Assembly (NCBI RefSeq): GCF_000190435.1
Contig: NC_015152.1
Coordinates: 936,458 to 1,000,457, forward strand
Source: Sphaerochaeta globosa str. Buddy
GTDB taxonomy: Bacteria > Spirochaetota > Spirochaetia > Sphaerochaetales > Sphaerochaetaceae
DNA: 64,000 bases
Direction: 5' to 3'
The notes beneath the pieces are model-generated. The model was not told the DNA's origin and did not search any database. It saw only the letters and a list, made by a program, of their open reading frames with translations. A program made the translations under genes and the position numbers. Shown here in pieces: positions 30,096-35,590 of this stretch (position 1 is its first letter; each line of letters opens with the position of its first letter).

Positions 30096-31631
30096 ATGCT
30101 GCGAAAACTGTTGAAGTTCTTCACAGGAAGATTGTTCATCTCCTTTGTGCTTATTTCTCTGCAAATCGGAATTTTGGTCAATATTTTCTCGTTTGCCCAA
30201 AATAGTGCGCTTTGGATACAGTTTCTTTCAGCTCTTTCCATTCTCATGACGTTGGTGGTAATCTCCCGCGACCTCAACCCTGCCTATAAAATCGGCTGGA
30301 TGCTCATTTTTATGTCCATTCCAGTCTACGGTGGCATATTCTACCTGTTTTTTGGTAATCGTCGGCTTAATGCGCGACTTCGATCACGTCTTGAACAACT
30401 CAATATTTTCTATCAGAAGGGAGTGGAAGGAGGAGCCTACAGCGAACTTCTCCCGATGAAAGCGTTGGCTTCTTATTCTCCAACCCTTGCACGACAAGCC
30501 CAATACATTGCGAATATTACCGGGTTTCCTGTCTGGGGAAATACCGAGGTAGAGTATTTCAGTTCGGGTGAGGCTTGGGTTCTCGATGTCCTTTCTGAAA
30601 TGAAGAAAGCAAAATCCTTTATTTTCATGGAATTCTTCATTATCAGCGAAGGCGAGATTTGGGATTCATTCCTCGCAGTGTTGCTCGAAAAGCAGAAAAT
30701 GGGTGTGAGAATCTGTCTTATGTATGACGATGTCGGCTCAATTTTGGATATTCCCTCCCATCTGGATCGCCGACTCAGATCGCTTGGGTTGGAAGTAGTC
30801 GCTTTCAATCCTCTCAGGGCTCACCTGAACAGCAAGCTCAATAGCCGTGACCATCGCAAGGTGTTGGTCATCGATGGCAATATCGGGTACACAGGCGGTA
30901 TGAACATCGCTGACGAGTACGCCAACCGGAAGCTGAAGTTCGGGCATTGGAAAGACACGGCGGTAAAACTGCGCGGTGATGCTGTGTGGAGCCTTTCCCA
31001 GATGTTCCTTCAGCTGTGGGCCTTCTCGACCGGGAAGTTCGAAGATTTTGCCAAGCATAGGCCGACAATTACCACCAAGATGGATGGATTCGTCCAGCCG
31101 TTTGCCGATAATCCCTTGGATAACGAGAATGTTGCGGAGAATGCGTATATCCAGATTATCAACATGGCCAAACGGTATGTATGGATTACTACGCCCTATC
31201 TGGTTTTGGATAATGAAATGCTTACTGCCCTCAAGATTGCCTCGCAAAGTGGTGTGGATGTGAGAATCATCACACCCCATATGCCGGACAAGTGGTATGT
31301 GTTTGCGGTGACCAGGGAGAATTACCGTCTGCTTTTGGAAGCAGGGGTAAAGATTTATGAGTATACACCTGGCTTTTTGCATGCGAAAATGTTCGTCAGT
31401 GATGATAGGGTGGCAATTATTGGAACGATCAACATGGACTATCGTTCATTCTATTTGCATTTCGAAAACGGGGTTGCCTTTTATGGTTCTTCCGTGATTC
31501 GCAAAGTATATGAGGATATCCAGCATACTTTACAGATTAGTGAACGTATTGCACAGGATTTCCATAAAAAAAGGCCATGGTACAAGCGATTGCTAGGCCT
31601 GATTCTCAAGATTGCCGCACCGCTGATGTAG
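30096..31631 (+). CDS. cls: Cardiolipin synthase (PLD family)
   Basis: 511 residues. It makes cardiolipin from phosphatidylglycerol at the inner membrane. Two N-terminal membrane helices (~13-35, ~40-60 and a third around IFYLFFGNRRL) precede two phospholipase-D domains. First HKD motif: DHRKVLVIDGNIGYTGGMN; second: FLHAKMFVSDDRVAIIGTIN; both His-Lys-Asp sets are complete. Length and layout match bacterial ClsA. ATG 30096 lies behind GGAGGAGG; the frame open to 30012 overlaps queH and is not needed. The PfkB gene follows after 8 bases. Confidence 0.94.
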   Translation: MLRKLLKFFTGRLFISFVLISLQIGILVNIFSFAQNSALWIQFLSALSILMTLVVISRDLNPAYKIGWMLIFMSIPVYGGIFYLFFGNRRLNARLRSRLEQLNIFYQKGVEGGAYSELLPMKALASYSPTLARQAQYIANITGFPVWGNTEVEYFSSGEAWVLDVLSEMKKAKSFIFMEFFIISEGEIWDSFLAVLLEKQKMGVRICLMYDDVGSILDIPSHLDRRLRSLGLEVVAFNPLRAHLNSKLNSRDHRKVLVIDGNIGYTGGMNIADEYANRKLKFGHWKDTAVKLRGDAVWSLSQMFLQLWAFSTGKFEDFAKHRPTITTKMDGFVQPFADNPLDNENVAENAYIQIINMAKRYVWITTPYLVLDNEMLTALKIASQSGVDVRIITPHMPDKWYVFAVTRENYRLLLEAGVKIYEYTPGFLHAKMFVSDDRVAIIGTINMDYRSFYLHFENGVAFYGSSVIRKVYEDIQHTLQISERIAQDFHKKRPWYKRLLGLILKIAAPLM

Positions 31632-31639
31632 GAGGAGTG

Positions 31640-32524
31640 ATGAGGTTTCTAAACTATGGATCGGTTAACATCGATTTGGTCTTTACTGTCGATCATATCG
31701 TCAAGGGAGGGGAGACGCTGCAAAGTACCTCGCTTACCAGGAGTGCAGGTGGCAAGGGTGCCAATCAGAGTGCAGCGTTGGCCAAGGCCGGCTCTTCAGT
31801 ATTTCACGCAGGTAAGGTCGGCTTCGATGGTGCGTTTTTACTTGAGCTGCTCTCTGGGTATGGTGTGGATGTCTCGAATATCCAATCCTATGAGGGAGCG
31901 ACCGGTCAAGCCCTGATCCAATTGGATTCCAACAAACAGAATGCCATCATCCTGTATAGCGGCGGTAATGGGGCCATTACGACCGAGGAGATCGACCGTA
32001 CCCTTGAACAATTCAACAGTGGCGATATGCTGGTATTGCAGAATGAGATTGTGCATACCGAGTATCTGATCAGAAAGGCAAAACAACGGGGTATGAAAGT
32101 CTGTATGAATACTGCTCCTTTCGATTCCTCCTTGCTCTCCCTTCCCTTGGATTTGGTGGACATCCTGGTTGCCAATGAGATTGAGGGTGCAGGTCTTGCC
32201 GGTATGGAAATGACTGCCGACTACAAAACCATTCTTGAAAGGTTGGTCACCCGGTACCCAAATTCCGAGATTCTTCTTACCATCGGTAAGCAGGGTTGTT
32301 GGTATGCTTTCAAGGATCTTAGGATCCATCACGGTATTTATGAGACACAGGTTGTCGATACAACCGCAGCCGGCGATACGTTCATAGGATTCTACCTTGC
32401 CTCGATCGCCCGCGGCTATTCAATCCGCCAAGCGTTGCAATATGCAAGCAAGGCTGCCGGCCTTGCTGTTTCACGGCCCGGTGCAATGGCTTCCATCCCC
32501 CTTGCTTTCGAGGTGTTTTCCTAA
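31640..32524 (+). CDS. PfkB-family sugar kinase (ribokinase-like)
   Basis: 294 residues. Seen: the N-terminal start NYGSVNIDLVFTVDHIVKGGET, the PfkB motif AGGKGANQSAALAKAG, ILTIGKQG-like strand (LLTIGKQGCWY), and the C-terminal ATP/active-site motif DTTAAGDTFIGFYLAS with the catalytic Asp. The pattern is closest to ribokinases; the substrate (ribose, another pentose or a nucleoside) is inferred only. A GGAGGAG site lies just before ATG 31640, eight bases after the cls stop. Linkage to cls gives no clue to function. No ribose transporter is close by. Confidence 0.88.
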   Translation: MRFLNYGSVNIDLVFTVDHIVKGGETLQSTSLTRSAGGKGANQSAALAKAGSSVFHAGKVGFDGAFLLELLSGYGVDVSNIQSYEGATGQALIQLDSNKQNAIILYSGGNGAITTEEIDRTLEQFNSGDMLVLQNEIVHTEYLIRKAKQRGMKVCMNTAPFDSSLLSLPLDLVDILVANEIEGAGLAGMEMTADYKTILERLVTRYPNSEILLTIGKQGCWYAFKDLRIHHGIYETQVVDTTAAGDTFIGFYLASIARGYSIRQALQYASKAAGLAVSRPGAMASIPLAFEVFS

Positions 32525-32551
32525 ACCAGATTCAAGCAGTATCTCTCACAT

Positions 32552-32593
32552 AAAAAAGAGAAGCCAGTGATGTTTCCCGCAACACTGGCTTCT
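32552..32593 (-). terminator. Terminator after the small secreted protein gene
   Basis: AGAAGCCAGTG pairs with CACTGGCTTCT around a 13-base loop; on the minus strand the stem runs into CTTTTTTA. The plus-strand side has no T run, but the hairpin may also end the cls-pfkB message. Confidence 0.75.
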
Positions 32594-32639
32594 GATTATT
32601 TGCAAGCTTGTCTGTCCGGACGCGCTATCTAGAAGCAAT

Positions 32640-32876
32640 TCAATTGGCAACCACGAACAAGGTCCTGTCCATTCCCTGCACGGCGACCGAGTAGGTGAAG
32701 TTGTAGGCATTGGAGGCGACCGTAAAGCCGAACTCGTCGGCGCTGAAGGTGGTCCTCTCCGGGATGTATGCATGCAGCTTGAGAGTCACGGTGTCGTTCA
32801 TGCCGGCGGCGAAGAGAGAGGAAGAGAGCAATGCCATGAGGATGATGGTAAGTGCGATGGTAGCTAACTTCTTCAT
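32640..32876 (-). CDS. Small secreted protein, function unknown
   Basis: 78 residues. A clear signal peptide (KK, then a hydrophobic run to SLFAAG, cut near residue 24) leaves a mature chain of about 54 residues: TVTLKLHAYIPERTTF and SNAYNFTYSVAVQGM are beta-strand-like with many Thr, Phe and Tyr. I do not recognise the family; the segment resembles the first strands of a larger secreted beta protein, so it could be a shortened member. AAGGAG precedes ATG 32876. Its own promoter is the best in the window and it has its own terminator, which speaks for strong expression. Confidence 0.7.
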   Translation of the reverse strand: MKKLATIALTIILMALLSSSLFAAGMNDTVTLKLHAYIPERTTFSADEFGFTVASNAYNFTYSVAVQGMDRTLFVVAN

Positions 32877-32909
32877 ATGCTCTCTCCTTCTTGTCGTTGT
32901 TGTACTTGA

Positions 32910-32969
32910 AGAATAGGGAATATGTGAGAAGATGTCAATACACGAAATACTATAATTTATTATAATAAA
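32910..32969 (-). promoter_or_regulatory. Strong promoter with AT-rich upstream element
   Basis: TTGACA (32938-32933), 17-base spacer, TATTCT (32915-32910), about 33 bases before ATG 32876. Upstream, 32940-32970 is nearly all A and T and contains the perfect 14-base palindrome TTTATTATAATAAA (32956-32969): an UP element, a regulator site, or both. Confidence 0.65.
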
Positions 32970-33232
32970 AGAAATTAGCGAATGTCATATGTACGAAGAA
33001 GTGACCTATAACATCTACCAATAACATATAACATAGCACAAGTTTTAACCGGTTTAGCAATCGCGATTGTTCACTTGTGACAGAGACAATACGCTGAATT
33101 TGCAGGCATTCGCACATACGGCATCCTTTGTGCTTGTGGCATATCCTTTGCTGTGACAAGAGACATGAACGAAGTATTGCACCGCTTCTGACAGGAGAGC
33201 GGTGAGCAAAGTGAACTGAACTTCTCCCAGAA
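32970..33232. other. Non-coding stretch between the small secreted gene and the AraC gene
   Basis: With the promoter to its left this makes about 350 bases without a gene. Seen: three copies of ATAACAT or its end AACAT within 33007-33034, and an imperfect direct repeat of GGCAT(AT)CCTTTG around 33120-33155. No open frame with a ribosome site, no tRNA and no clear terminator for araC was found. Confidence 0.35.
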
Positions 33233-34024
33233 TTAGGAGCCGAGAAGTTGCAGGTGTGTTTTCCTATACGCCGAGGGGCTGGTTCCCGTAGACTGCTTGA
33301 ATCGTTTGGAGAAGTGGAATTCAGAACAGAACTGGAGTCTGTCTGCAATCTCCTTGACCGAGAGATTGGTACTGGTGAGCAATGCCCTTGCCGCCTCAAG
33401 TTGTAAGTTGGAATAGTACTGCATCGGGGTGGTGTTCATGCGCTTCTTGAAAAGGCGTACAAAATAGGAATGATCGAGTTGTACATGGTTTGCGATCATC
33501 TGCAGGTCGACCTTGTCGAAGACATGGCGTTGCATGTAGCGGATGGCTTTTTCGAGCCGGATGTTTTCGCCCTTAACCTCTTCAATTTTCGTTCCAGCAG
33601 CAAGGTTGTACAGAAGCCCCAGTACTTGATGGCATGCACTGATGCGCAGTTCCCTGGTTTGGCTCAATCCTTTATCCCTGACTTCCTCGAAGAAGAATCG
33701 CCAGTTGGTTCCAACTTTTATCGGGTTCATGGTTTCCAATCTTTTGGCAAGTTCAAGCTCCTCGGGACAGAAGAGGAGGGTGGCATAGTACGTAAGGCTC
33801 TCCTCCTCATTCGCTTCAATGCTGTGGATGGTCTCTCCTGTGGTGACGAACAATGAGCCTGGGGAGATGCTATAGCGGTTGTGAGCATTGGAAAACGTGC
33901 CACTGCCGCTTACAAAGTAATGGAGCTCAAATTGCCCCTTCTCATGGCTGTGTACCCGTTGGTGCCATAAGAGTTCCTGTTGTTCATGCATCTGAAAGAC
34001 AAAAACTGCGTCCAATAGTTCCAT
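33233..34024 (-). CDS. AraC-family regulator, probable xylose operon activator
   Basis: 263 residues: an N-terminal cupin sensor domain (~1-140, with HSHEKGQFELHYFVSGSG and YSISPGSLFVTTGETIHSI) and a C-terminal AraC double helix-turn-helix (~165-263: VDLQMIANHVQLDHSYFVRLFKKRMNTTPMQYYSNLQLEAA split over two helices, and SVKEIADRLQFCSEFHFSKRFKQ). It is divergent from xylB-xylA with 87 bases between, so it most likely controls them in response to a sugar. Start ATG 34024 lies six bases after a TATTAT box, without a ribosome site. The sensed sugar is not shown by sequence. Confidence 0.88.
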   Translation of the reverse strand: MELLDAVFVFQMHEQQELLWHQRVHSHEKGQFELHYFVSGSGTFSNAHNRYSISPGSLFVTTGETIHSIEANEEESLTYYATLLFCPEELELAKRLETMNPIKVGTNWRFFFEEVRDKGLSQTRELRISACHQVLGLLYNLAAGTKIEEVKGENIRLEKAIRYMQRHVFDKVDLQMIANHVQLDHSYFVRLFKKRMNTTPMQYYSNLQLEAARALLTSTNLSVKEIADRLQFCSEFHFSKRFKQSTGTSPSAYRKTHLQLLGS

Positions 34025-34030
34025 AAGTCA

Positions 34031-34060
34031 ATAATACATATGTTTTTCCAATCTTGTCTA
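34031..34060 (-). promoter_or_regulatory. araC-type gene promoter, leaderless type
   Basis: TAGACA (34060-34055), 18-base spacer, TATTAT (34036-34031), 6 bases, ATG 34024. In contrast the xylB side offers only a TATGGT-like -10 and no good -35, as expected for an activator-dependent promoter. Confidence 0.6.
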
Positions 34061-34111
34061 TGGTAATACCCCTTCTGTTGGAGGATGCTGTAGCAAAGGA
34101 GACGGAGTAAT

Positions 34112-35590
34112 ATGCAAGTTGTTGCAGGAATTGATACTGGAACGCAGAGTACCAAGGTGCTCTGTTATGACGTTGACACAAAGAGCGTTCTGTTGACCGT
34201 CAGTGCGTCTCACCAGATGTTCAGCTCGGATGACGGGACCCGTGAGCAAGAAGCCGTATGGTACTTGGATGCCATCAGGTCCTGTTTTGATCAAATAGAC
34301 CCTGCCATTAAAAGTCAGATTAGCGGTATCGGTGTTTCAGCGCAGCAGCATGGTTTCGTTCCTGTTGGAAAGGATGGGGAAGTGCTTGCCCCGGTGAAAC
34401 TCTGGTGTGACACCTCGACGAAGGCCCAATGCGATGAACTGACAGAGAGGCTTGGCGGGGAAGAACGGGTATTTGCCTTGCTGGGAAACCAGATTTTGCC
34501 AGGCTATACGCTTTCCAAGATTCTACACCTCAAGCAACATCGCAAGGATGCCTATGACAAGCTTGCACATATTCTGTTGCCGCACGATTATATCAACTAC
34601 TATCTTACCGGCGAGTATACCGCCGAGGCGGGTGATGCCTCCGGTAGCGCCTTCTTCGATGTGAAGCATAAGAAGTGGAGCCGTGAAGTTCTTGAGGCTG
34701 TCGATGAGAATCGCGACTTGTACAGCCTGTTGCCTCCCTTGGTGGAAGCGGGCAAGAGTTGTGGCAAGGTGCAAGCCTCTACGGCTAAGGAACTGGGTAT
34801 CCCACTCGGTATTCCCGTCTCCTGTGGAGCGGGTGACAACATGGCAGGAGCCATAGGGACCGGGTGTGTCGGCAAGGGTGATTTGACCATGAGCATGGGT
34901 ACCAGCGGGACCTTGTTCGGATACAGCGACAGCTGCATTACCGATCCTAAGGGACGTCTTGCGGCCTTCTGCTCGTCAACCGGCGGGTATATGCCGCTGC
35001 TGTGCACGATGAATTGTACCATTACCACCGAGTCGGTCCGCTCTCTGTTCGGCTACGATGTCAAACAGCTTGACACGTTGGCCGGTGAAGCTCCGATCGG
35101 ATGTGAGGGTGTTACGATGTTGCCATTCTTCAATGGGGAACGCGTTCCCAACCTGCCCCATGGCAAGGGTGTGATTGCAGGCCTGGATATGAGCAATATG
35201 AAGGTGCAGAACATAGCCCGTTCGGCTCTTGAGAGTTCCATCTATGCTATGAAAGGCGGCCTGGATGCGTTTAGGGAGCTTGGTTTTGTTCCCCAACGGA
35301 TTATTCTCACCGGTGGCGGTGCAAAAAGCGCCATCTGGAGGCAGATCGCTTGTGATGTCATGCAATTGCCGCTAGCAGTTCCGATGGTTGCAGAAAGTGC
35401 CGCTTTTGGTGCTGCCTTGCAGGCATTATGGACACTAAAGGGTACCAGTATTGTGGATCTTGCCAAGGAGCACGTGCTTTTTGACGAGTCGAAATCATGT
35501 ACACCGGATAAGGAAGCGGGCAAGCAGTATGAAGTAGCCTATGCCCGTTATCAAGCGTATGTAGAGGCCATGACGCCTCTGTTTGCATAG
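34112..35590 (+). CDS. xylB: Xylulokinase
   Basis: 492 residues, FGGY kinase family. It phosphorylates D-xylulose to xylulose-5-P for the pentose phosphate pathway. Seen: AGIDTGTQSTK at the N terminus (phosphate-binding), GIGVSAQQHGFVP with the xylulokinase QQHG signature, MSMGTSGTLFGY, and the C-terminal ATP motif ILTGGGAKSAIWRQI. AAGGAGACGGAG lies before ATG 34112. It precedes xylA by 9 bases, so both are one operon. The gene order kinase then isomerase is reversed relative to E. coli. Confidence 0.95.
   Translation: MQVVAGIDTGTQSTKVLCYDVDTKSVLLTVSASHQMFSSDDGTREQEAVWYLDAIRSCFDQIDPAIKSQISGIGVSAQQHGFVPVGKDGEVLAPVKLWCDTSTKAQCDELTERLGGEERVFALLGNQILPGYTLSKILHLKQHRKDAYDKLAHILLPHDYINYYLTGEYTAEAGDASGSAFFDVKHKKWSREVLEAVDENRDLYSLLPPLVEAGKSCGKVQASTAKELGIPLGIPVSCGAGDNMAGAIGTGCVGKGDLTMSMGTSGTLFGYSDSCITDPKGRLAAFCSSTGGYMPLLCTMNCTITTESVRSLFGYDVKQLDTLAGEAPIGCEGVTMLPFFNGERVPNLPHGKGVIAGLDMSNMKVQNIARSALESSIYAMKGGLDAFRELGFVPQRIILTGGGAKSAIWRQIACDVMQLPLAVPMVAESAAFGAALQALWTLKGTSIVDLAKEHVLFDESKSCTPDKEAGKQYEVAYARYQAYVEAMTPLFA

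Follow-up and report, generated by a model that had tools for sequence, protein, structure and literature searches.

The 3'UTR of a small secreted-protein gene in Sphaerochaeta globosa str. Buddy, here called A, carries a 26-nt element that is more conserved than the A protein and than synonymous sites, and part of it is complementary to a motif in the 3'UTRs of a second family of secreted proteins, B. From these sequences I tentatively propose, as a reading with rather less than an even chance of being right in full, a genus-wide circuit free of Hfq and CsrA in which co-regulated surface-protein mRNAs would be connected through their tails; the A tail would be antisense to some B 3'UTRs and a mimic of B leaders, and the B leader would be a new class of cis-regulatory RNA. 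A putative transcription factor would bind TGTCAYAWGY sites at fixed upstream distances and would control the secreted set, the 78-aa A together with the ~180-aa B family. The A transcript would have two outputs, a small exported protein and a trans-acting 3' RNA element: GGACAGACAAG in the A tail would pair with CUUGUCUGUCC in part of the B mRNA 3'UTRs, and the CUUGCA and GGGAAA loop of the same tail would imitate B leaders and could titrate a leader-binding factor. The direction of regulation that I infer is that A levels would tune B protein synthesis or mRNA life. Gene A lies in a window of 64,000 nt, the whole stretch of DNA analysed (NC_015152.1 positions 936,458-1,000,457), and coordinates given below are window positions.

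Gene A (32640-32876, minus strand) comprises 78 codons with an ATG start behind an AAGGAG ribosome site. Its N-terminus, MKKLATIALTIILMALLSSSLFA, is by inspection a Sec-type signal peptide (approximately residues 1-23, no lipobox Cys), and the mature protein after this putative signal would have about 54-55 aa. A homologue is found in the relative Sphaerochaeta sp. S2, and matches occur in 20 of 26 Sphaerochaeta genomes, 18 of them with full-length copies; the remaining two are a broken frame (G095) and a 31-residue piece at a contig end (G112). A seven-row profile, applied at E 0.001 or better, matches 47 of the 139 genomes of the order, and a sample of 392 genomes from the phylum yielded 19 with a match; 15 of these belong to the same family, and the other four, all marginal, do not. 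The proteins of close relatives have 74-79 aa, and nearly all of them end in V/I-A-N/K/R. With the window copy as reference, dN/dS is 0.10-0.24 in 16 of 23 comparisons and 0.37-0.65 in three, and in the other four dS is saturated and unmeasurable. Since homologues of the same length exist and the ratio is 0.10-0.24 in those 16 comparisons, A is not a chance ORF; judged from these ratios, purifying selection acts on it. The frame-broken gene of G095 (contig C64) still has its 3'UTR element intact. Another genus (G121:C15) contains three distant A-like genes of 81-82 aa within ~18 kb, without the 3' element.

An earlier, sequence-only reading of this locus had described a 78-residue precursor of no known family, and both statements hold: the ORF is conserved, there is no Pfam match, and all NCBIfam matches fall below the cut-off. 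Nor does the PDB contain a relative of A (best E 0.31), and an AlphaFold2 model from six sequences, with four C-terminal strands, is too weak to use (mean pLDDT 69, pTM 0.33). That reading would have been overturned by full-length homologues exposing A as a broken remnant, and the close relatives speak otherwise by their length and common C-terminal ending. I also reject A as the remnant of a longer protein on a wider count, in which 48 of 49 homologue places read hold 72-99 aa and one is frame-broken; this count leaves out 13 weak matches (E 2.5e-5 or worse), of which one is a contig-end piece and 12, in frames 271-472 aa long, align chiefly to the signal-peptide end of the query. Among the roles suggested earlier, the association of A with the secreted B proteins speaks for a surface or matrix protein, and from it I take A to be most likely a surface or envelope component; for a toxin-like peptide or a signal the sequences offer no support.

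Transcription would start from a sigma-70-type promoter on the minus strand, TTGACA-17-TATTCT (32910-32938; 10/12 consensus match), with the -35 box at 32938-32933, the -10 box at 32915-32910 and a 17-bp spacer. Upstream of it, inside an AT-rich stretch, is the AT-only perfect 14-base palindrome TTTATTATAATAAA (32956-32969, minus), one of three perfect 14-mer palindromes in the window; the palindrome is kept only in close relatives, whereas upstream A/T-richness is general. Promoter, ribosome site, AT-only upstream element and palindrome are all present as described in the sequence-only reading, as is the gene's own terminator, and the sequences support its picture of a small exported protein whose gene has a promoter, a ribosome site and a terminator, the promoter region being conserved. 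Its further claim that this is the strongest promoter in the window holds only in part. Two sites score 11/12 (58458 on the plus and 32988 on the minus strand) and the A promoter is one of ten at 10/12, but the 25 bases upstream of it are the richest in A/T (21) among these 12 top sites, and its -35 region has been conserved across species. Promoter-like sites at 31000-35000 are not enriched (5 versus 4.6 in shuffles). What the earlier reading overlooked is everything from the sites beyond 32969 to the second copy of the gene, the 3'UTR element and the link to B.

Beyond the palindrome lies an inverted site, TGTCATATGT (32983-32992, plus), of the form ACATRTGACA, whose distance from the -35 box is 53-54 bp in 23 of the 24 members, and then the site TGTCACAAGT (33073-33082, minus, at about -206), which is 142-145 bp from it in 21 of 24. 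Further site-like repeats follow at 33132-33193 on the minus strand (TGCCACAAGC at -265 and TGTCAGAAGC at -317), and conserved footprints reach about -320 in the 24 A upstream regions, one of which is truncated by a contig end. Sites matching at least 8 of 10 positions number 276 in these regions against 35 in block shuffles, a comparison in which the consensus was drawn from the same sequences. As a genome-wide over-represented motif TGTCAYAWGY was rejected, because exact copies in the own genome number 31 versus 40 for the reversed pattern; to judge from the sequence, what distinguishes the site is where it lies rather than how often it occurs.

The neighbourhoods of all 31 own-genome sites were scanned for a downstream start codon. 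Four sites lie in two A modules and seven more lie upstream of secreted-protein genes, and it is through this shared site that the B family, secreted proteins of ~180 aa, was reached. The seven belong to five B genes (L181 with two sites, two genes in L182, L229 and L183/L226) and to L205, and TTGACA follows downstream of the site in all six genes. The L205 gene (G000:C1:3234400-3236400, minus) encodes a 173-aa secreted protein; its site, TGTCATAAGC, is at -190, TTGACA follows 100 bp past the site, and its leader contains GGGAAAGATCTTGCAC. Where site and -35 box are both listed, their distance in B genes is 120-121 bp in 8 of 11 and 106-107 bp in three. Across the family, a site occurs at -245 to -190 in 38 of 47 upstream regions (strict form in 32), compared with a mean of 0.16 in mononucleotide shuffles and one each in the intervals -185 to -130 and -75 to -20. 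The interval -130 to -75 had 37, since the -35 box, TTGACATAAG, falls within it and is counted.

A profile search finds B in 24 of 26 genus genomes; within the 64-kb window there is no B gene (best E 0.65). The proteins have signal-peptide-like starts and look beta-rich, and the PDB contains no relative (best E 0.22). Pfam does not identify them as pilin or chaperone-usher subunits, CblD matching 2 of 18 members only (best E 0.041). I claim no common descent of A and B, since their profiles align over the signal peptide only. One B gene without the 3' motif (L181/L184) adjoins, by inspection of its ORFs, an apparent polysaccharide synthesis cluster, and a transposase-like ORF lies beside it at 10505-11839 of L184.

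The 3' element of A, AGCGCGTCCGGACAGACAAGCTTGCA (32601-32626, minus), lies 6-14 nt past the stop codon and directly before the intrinsic terminator (32552-32592, minus), which consists of a hairpin at 32560-32592 with the loop CGGGAAA and a T-tract at 32552-32557. The fold of the whole 3'UTR, terminator hairpin included, has -25.9 kcal/mol; a simple scanner did not return that hairpin. The loop GGGAAA is present in 17 of 21 aligned distinct A 3'UTRs, and the terminator stem covaries, with a kept double change in 7 of 16 predicted pairs. Over 24 members, the diverged copy in G094:C31 excluded, the element varies at positions 5, 8, 9 and 16 only. In the 81 pairs with protein identity below 0.50, fourfold-site identity is 0.37 and element identity 0.87; in the 80 pairs at 0.50-0.60 the values are 0.39 and 0.94. 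In both groups the fourfold sites exceed random identity only slightly. Conservation between stop codon and terminator that exceeds that of the coding sequence is a hallmark of 3'UTR-derived small RNAs, and the A tail has it. The same conservation would go unexplained if A were simply a small secreted protein of the usual kind behind a good promoter, with nothing more to it, so that this reading, for all that it suits a coding sequence under purifying selection and a signal-peptide-like start, is very improbable indeed.

The element is not read-through coding, because its frame relative to the coding sequence varies (13, 8 and 3 of 24), and a read-through peptide was rejected on this ground. 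A conserved hairpin within it is not claimed either, as the six pairs that RNAalifold places in the 26 nt hardly vary. A covariance model of the 3'UTR was run against 139 genomes under strict filters, with 35 candidates scored per genome, and gave 26 matches of at least 42 bits, all behind gene A family members: 25 already known copies, one of them frame-broken, and a contig end in G111 reading LFVVAN-stop. No strong stand-alone copy was found in these genomes. Weaker matches comprise G094:C31:285 behind a diverged paralogue (33.6 bits), a contig end in G112 (C100, 30.3 bits) behind an ORF of undemonstrated family membership, the opposite strand of known elements, and places elsewhere in G066, G111:C222 and G000:C1:2104487. 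A comparison of the A 3'UTR with known RNA families yielded two chance-level matches and no family.

Just past the stop codons of two own-genome B genes is AAACTTGTCTGTCC, which is a stretch of the A element in reverse complement; the 11-nt segment GGACAGACAAG (32607-32617, minus) is complementary to CTTGTCTGTCC in some B 3'UTRs. When the 26 genus genomes were scanned with TGCAARCTTGTCTGTCC at up to two mismatches, 60 places were found, 25 of them A elements, against 12 for the reversed pattern. Non-A places at 0-1 mismatch lie in B 3'UTRs in 11 of 12 cases (the exception is G105:C5), and those at two mismatches in 4 of 23; of the 20 other non-A places seven were read, and none of these seven lies behind a B gene. 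One of the 11 (G110:C1:1337200-1341700) lies behind a B gene that has internal stops but retains the 3' motif. The B profile, which was built mostly from motif-bearing genes and therefore carries a mild bias, yields 50 distinct 3'UTRs behind matching frames, one of them a 34-residue fragment. TTG[CT]CTGTCC occurs in 16 of the 50, and in 17 an uninterrupted stretch of 10 nt or more is complementary to the A element, most often CUUGUCUGUCC facing GGACAGACAAG; shuffled elements give a mean of 0.025, the reversed or same-sense element gives 0 of 50, and 33 B 3'UTRs are without 10 nt of complementarity. On this sequence evidence the A tail has species-recurrent complementarity to trans-encoded mRNAs. 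That it acts in trans by pairing with B tails, with or without a decoy role, seems to me evenly poised between right and wrong.

Predicted duplexes between the A tail and the 16 motif-bearing B 3'UTRs have -20.3 to -30.1 kcal/mol, compared with shuffle means of -6.6 to -14.8 kcal/mol, although some single shuffles came close. Non-motif B 3'UTRs also yield strong predicted duplexes (-33 kcal/mol at best, as the best of several windows), so that a duplex cannot be judged by its energy alone. Most pairs have a mismatch at the central base of the pairing, no clear compensatory change was seen between A and B, and the pairing does not account for the element's initial stretch, AGCGSGTCC. In five genomes, a looser search for complements returned 116 places, A elements making up nine, and the reversed pattern returned 74; in the own genome there was no excess (21 versus 21). 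Long complements at start codons were not convincing at any of 19 own-genome places and one of G100; a single own-genome place is near a candidate start, a TTG. Hfq, the usual but not universal partner of 3'UTR-derived small RNAs, has no match in the own genome.

The B motif is present in 15 of the 20 genomes with the A element, counting G110 and also G109, whose 3'UTR is the same as that of G115 and was deduplicated. The A element without the B motif is found in G100, G103 (no B gene found), G105, G106 and G111; its complementary stretch is changed in G106 and unchanged in the other four. The B partner thus cannot be the only constraint on the element, and these four genomes slightly lower my estimate for the pairing. 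Conversely, G102 and G112, both incomplete drafts, have the B motif without a strong A element. An element that only stabilises or localises the A mRNA would sit naturally before the terminator, needs no partner, and would stay intact in genomes without the B motif, but it would leave both the complementary B 3'UTRs and the leader sub-motifs described below without an explanation, and I regard it as quite improbable.

In most B leaders, a first hairpin whose loop is of the GGGAAA type is followed by CUUGCAC, another hairpin and the ribosome site. The strings GG[AG]AA and [CT]TTGCA both occur in 32 of 40 leaders (promoter to start codon), a test that can also be met by a ribosome site. In the 33 leaders that were aligned, six different-looking ones and one near-duplicate being left out, GG[AG]AA is in a 6-8-nt loop in 24 (7 nt in 11), and 31 have a second hairpin after CUUGCAC, its stem occurring in 13 different sequences. 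These counts come from a stem finder and are no formal covariation score, since the automatic alignment misaligned the stem arms. Rfam gave no leader match for 16 B loci at gathering scores, and for one B leader at relaxed settings only one chance-level match. A cobalamin riboswitch (RF00174, 87.9 bits) lies at 1105-1295 of L260, downstream of a B gene in G097 whose leader is at 434-502.

The A tail repeats the CUUGCA and GGGAAA loop of the B leaders, in opposite order. The tail might therefore be a decoy only, binding an RNA-binding protein that controls B leaders, with the antisense match a by-product or a part of some other step. Both sub-motifs are indeed common to most B leaders and the A tail, the element is intact in the four genomes where no B motif was found, and in two genomes outside the genus (G080 and G081) the 3'UTRs of distant A-like genes keep CTTGCA and the GGGAAA terminator loop without the rest. 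A decoy, however, gives no account of the nearly fixed GGACAGACAAG or of its complement recurring in B 3'UTRs, and it has no candidate protein: the CsrA/RsmA that a sponge of that type would need was not found, the CsrA search of the own genome being negative. I consider a pure decoy rather unlikely. The tails of G080 and G081 may possibly be an ancestral form of the element.

Pairing between A and B tails would have partial precedents. In the case of cpxP/CpxQ, a small exported protein under a strongly regulated promoter has a 3'UTR that outconserves the rest of its gene and whose 3' end yields a processed RNA, CpxQ, which works with Hfq (PMC9438474, PMC4817254). Gene A resembles cpxP in the small exported protein, the presumably regulated promoter and the more conserved 3'UTR, but it differs in that Hfq was not found here, in that the complement lies in partner 3'UTRs, and in that an RNA from the A 3' end is a predicted one. 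The Listeria hly 3'UTR pairs with the prsA2 5'UTR and the S. aureus vigR 3'UTR with isaA and folD (PMC7821165, PMC9217812), so that one mRNA's 3'UTR pairs with another mRNA, as is predicted for A and B. Unlike in those cases, the A-B partners would both be short 3'UTRs beside terminators, recurrent in the genus and belonging to genes that share upstream sites. RsmW is presented as a 3'UTR-type sponge of RsmA/CsrA (PMC7821165, PMC4950607), and the A tail could likewise be a 3'UTR RNA that sequesters a leader-binding regulator; the differences are that no CsrA was found in the genome and that the GGGAAA loop and CUUGCAC make a different motif. A literature search returned no work on spirochete 3'UTR small RNAs or Sphaerochaeta regulatory RNA, no work on complementary 3'UTRs of two mRNAs and, among the matches listed, no title on Sphaerochaeta transcription or proteins. 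If the conserved pairing of A and B mRNAs is true, bacteria can wire sets of surface proteins through 3'UTRs, and the pairing is a directly testable case of this; the locus further provides a candidate motif for leaders, a new family of small secreted proteins and regulator sites at fixed spacing.

Finally, the whole A module of 677 bp (32553-33229, minus) has a second genomic copy at G000:C1:674.4-675.1 kb, with 98.7% identity (99% at the protein level), sharp ends and different flanks. No match pointing to a phage or plasmid origin of the module was found. Its near-identical second copy with sharp ends, and the two 8-bp palindromes GTCCGGAC and CAAGCTTG within the element, would suit a site for a DNA-binding protein or recombinase that happens to be located within 3'UTRs, pointing in opposite directions in the two families. 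Such a DNA site is nevertheless improbable: in the members read, the element follows the stop codon and precedes the terminator, always in the same direction within a family; at up to three mismatches, the own genome shows it nowhere but in the two copies of A; and viral contigs contain no exact match. One relative contig (L007) has the A module in the surroundings of the second copy and two others (L008, L011) have it in those of the window copy. From sequence, the own-genome pair looks like the product of a recent gene conversion of exactly the module. In the relative G091, two A copies, apparently at the same two sites, diverge more than this pair does.
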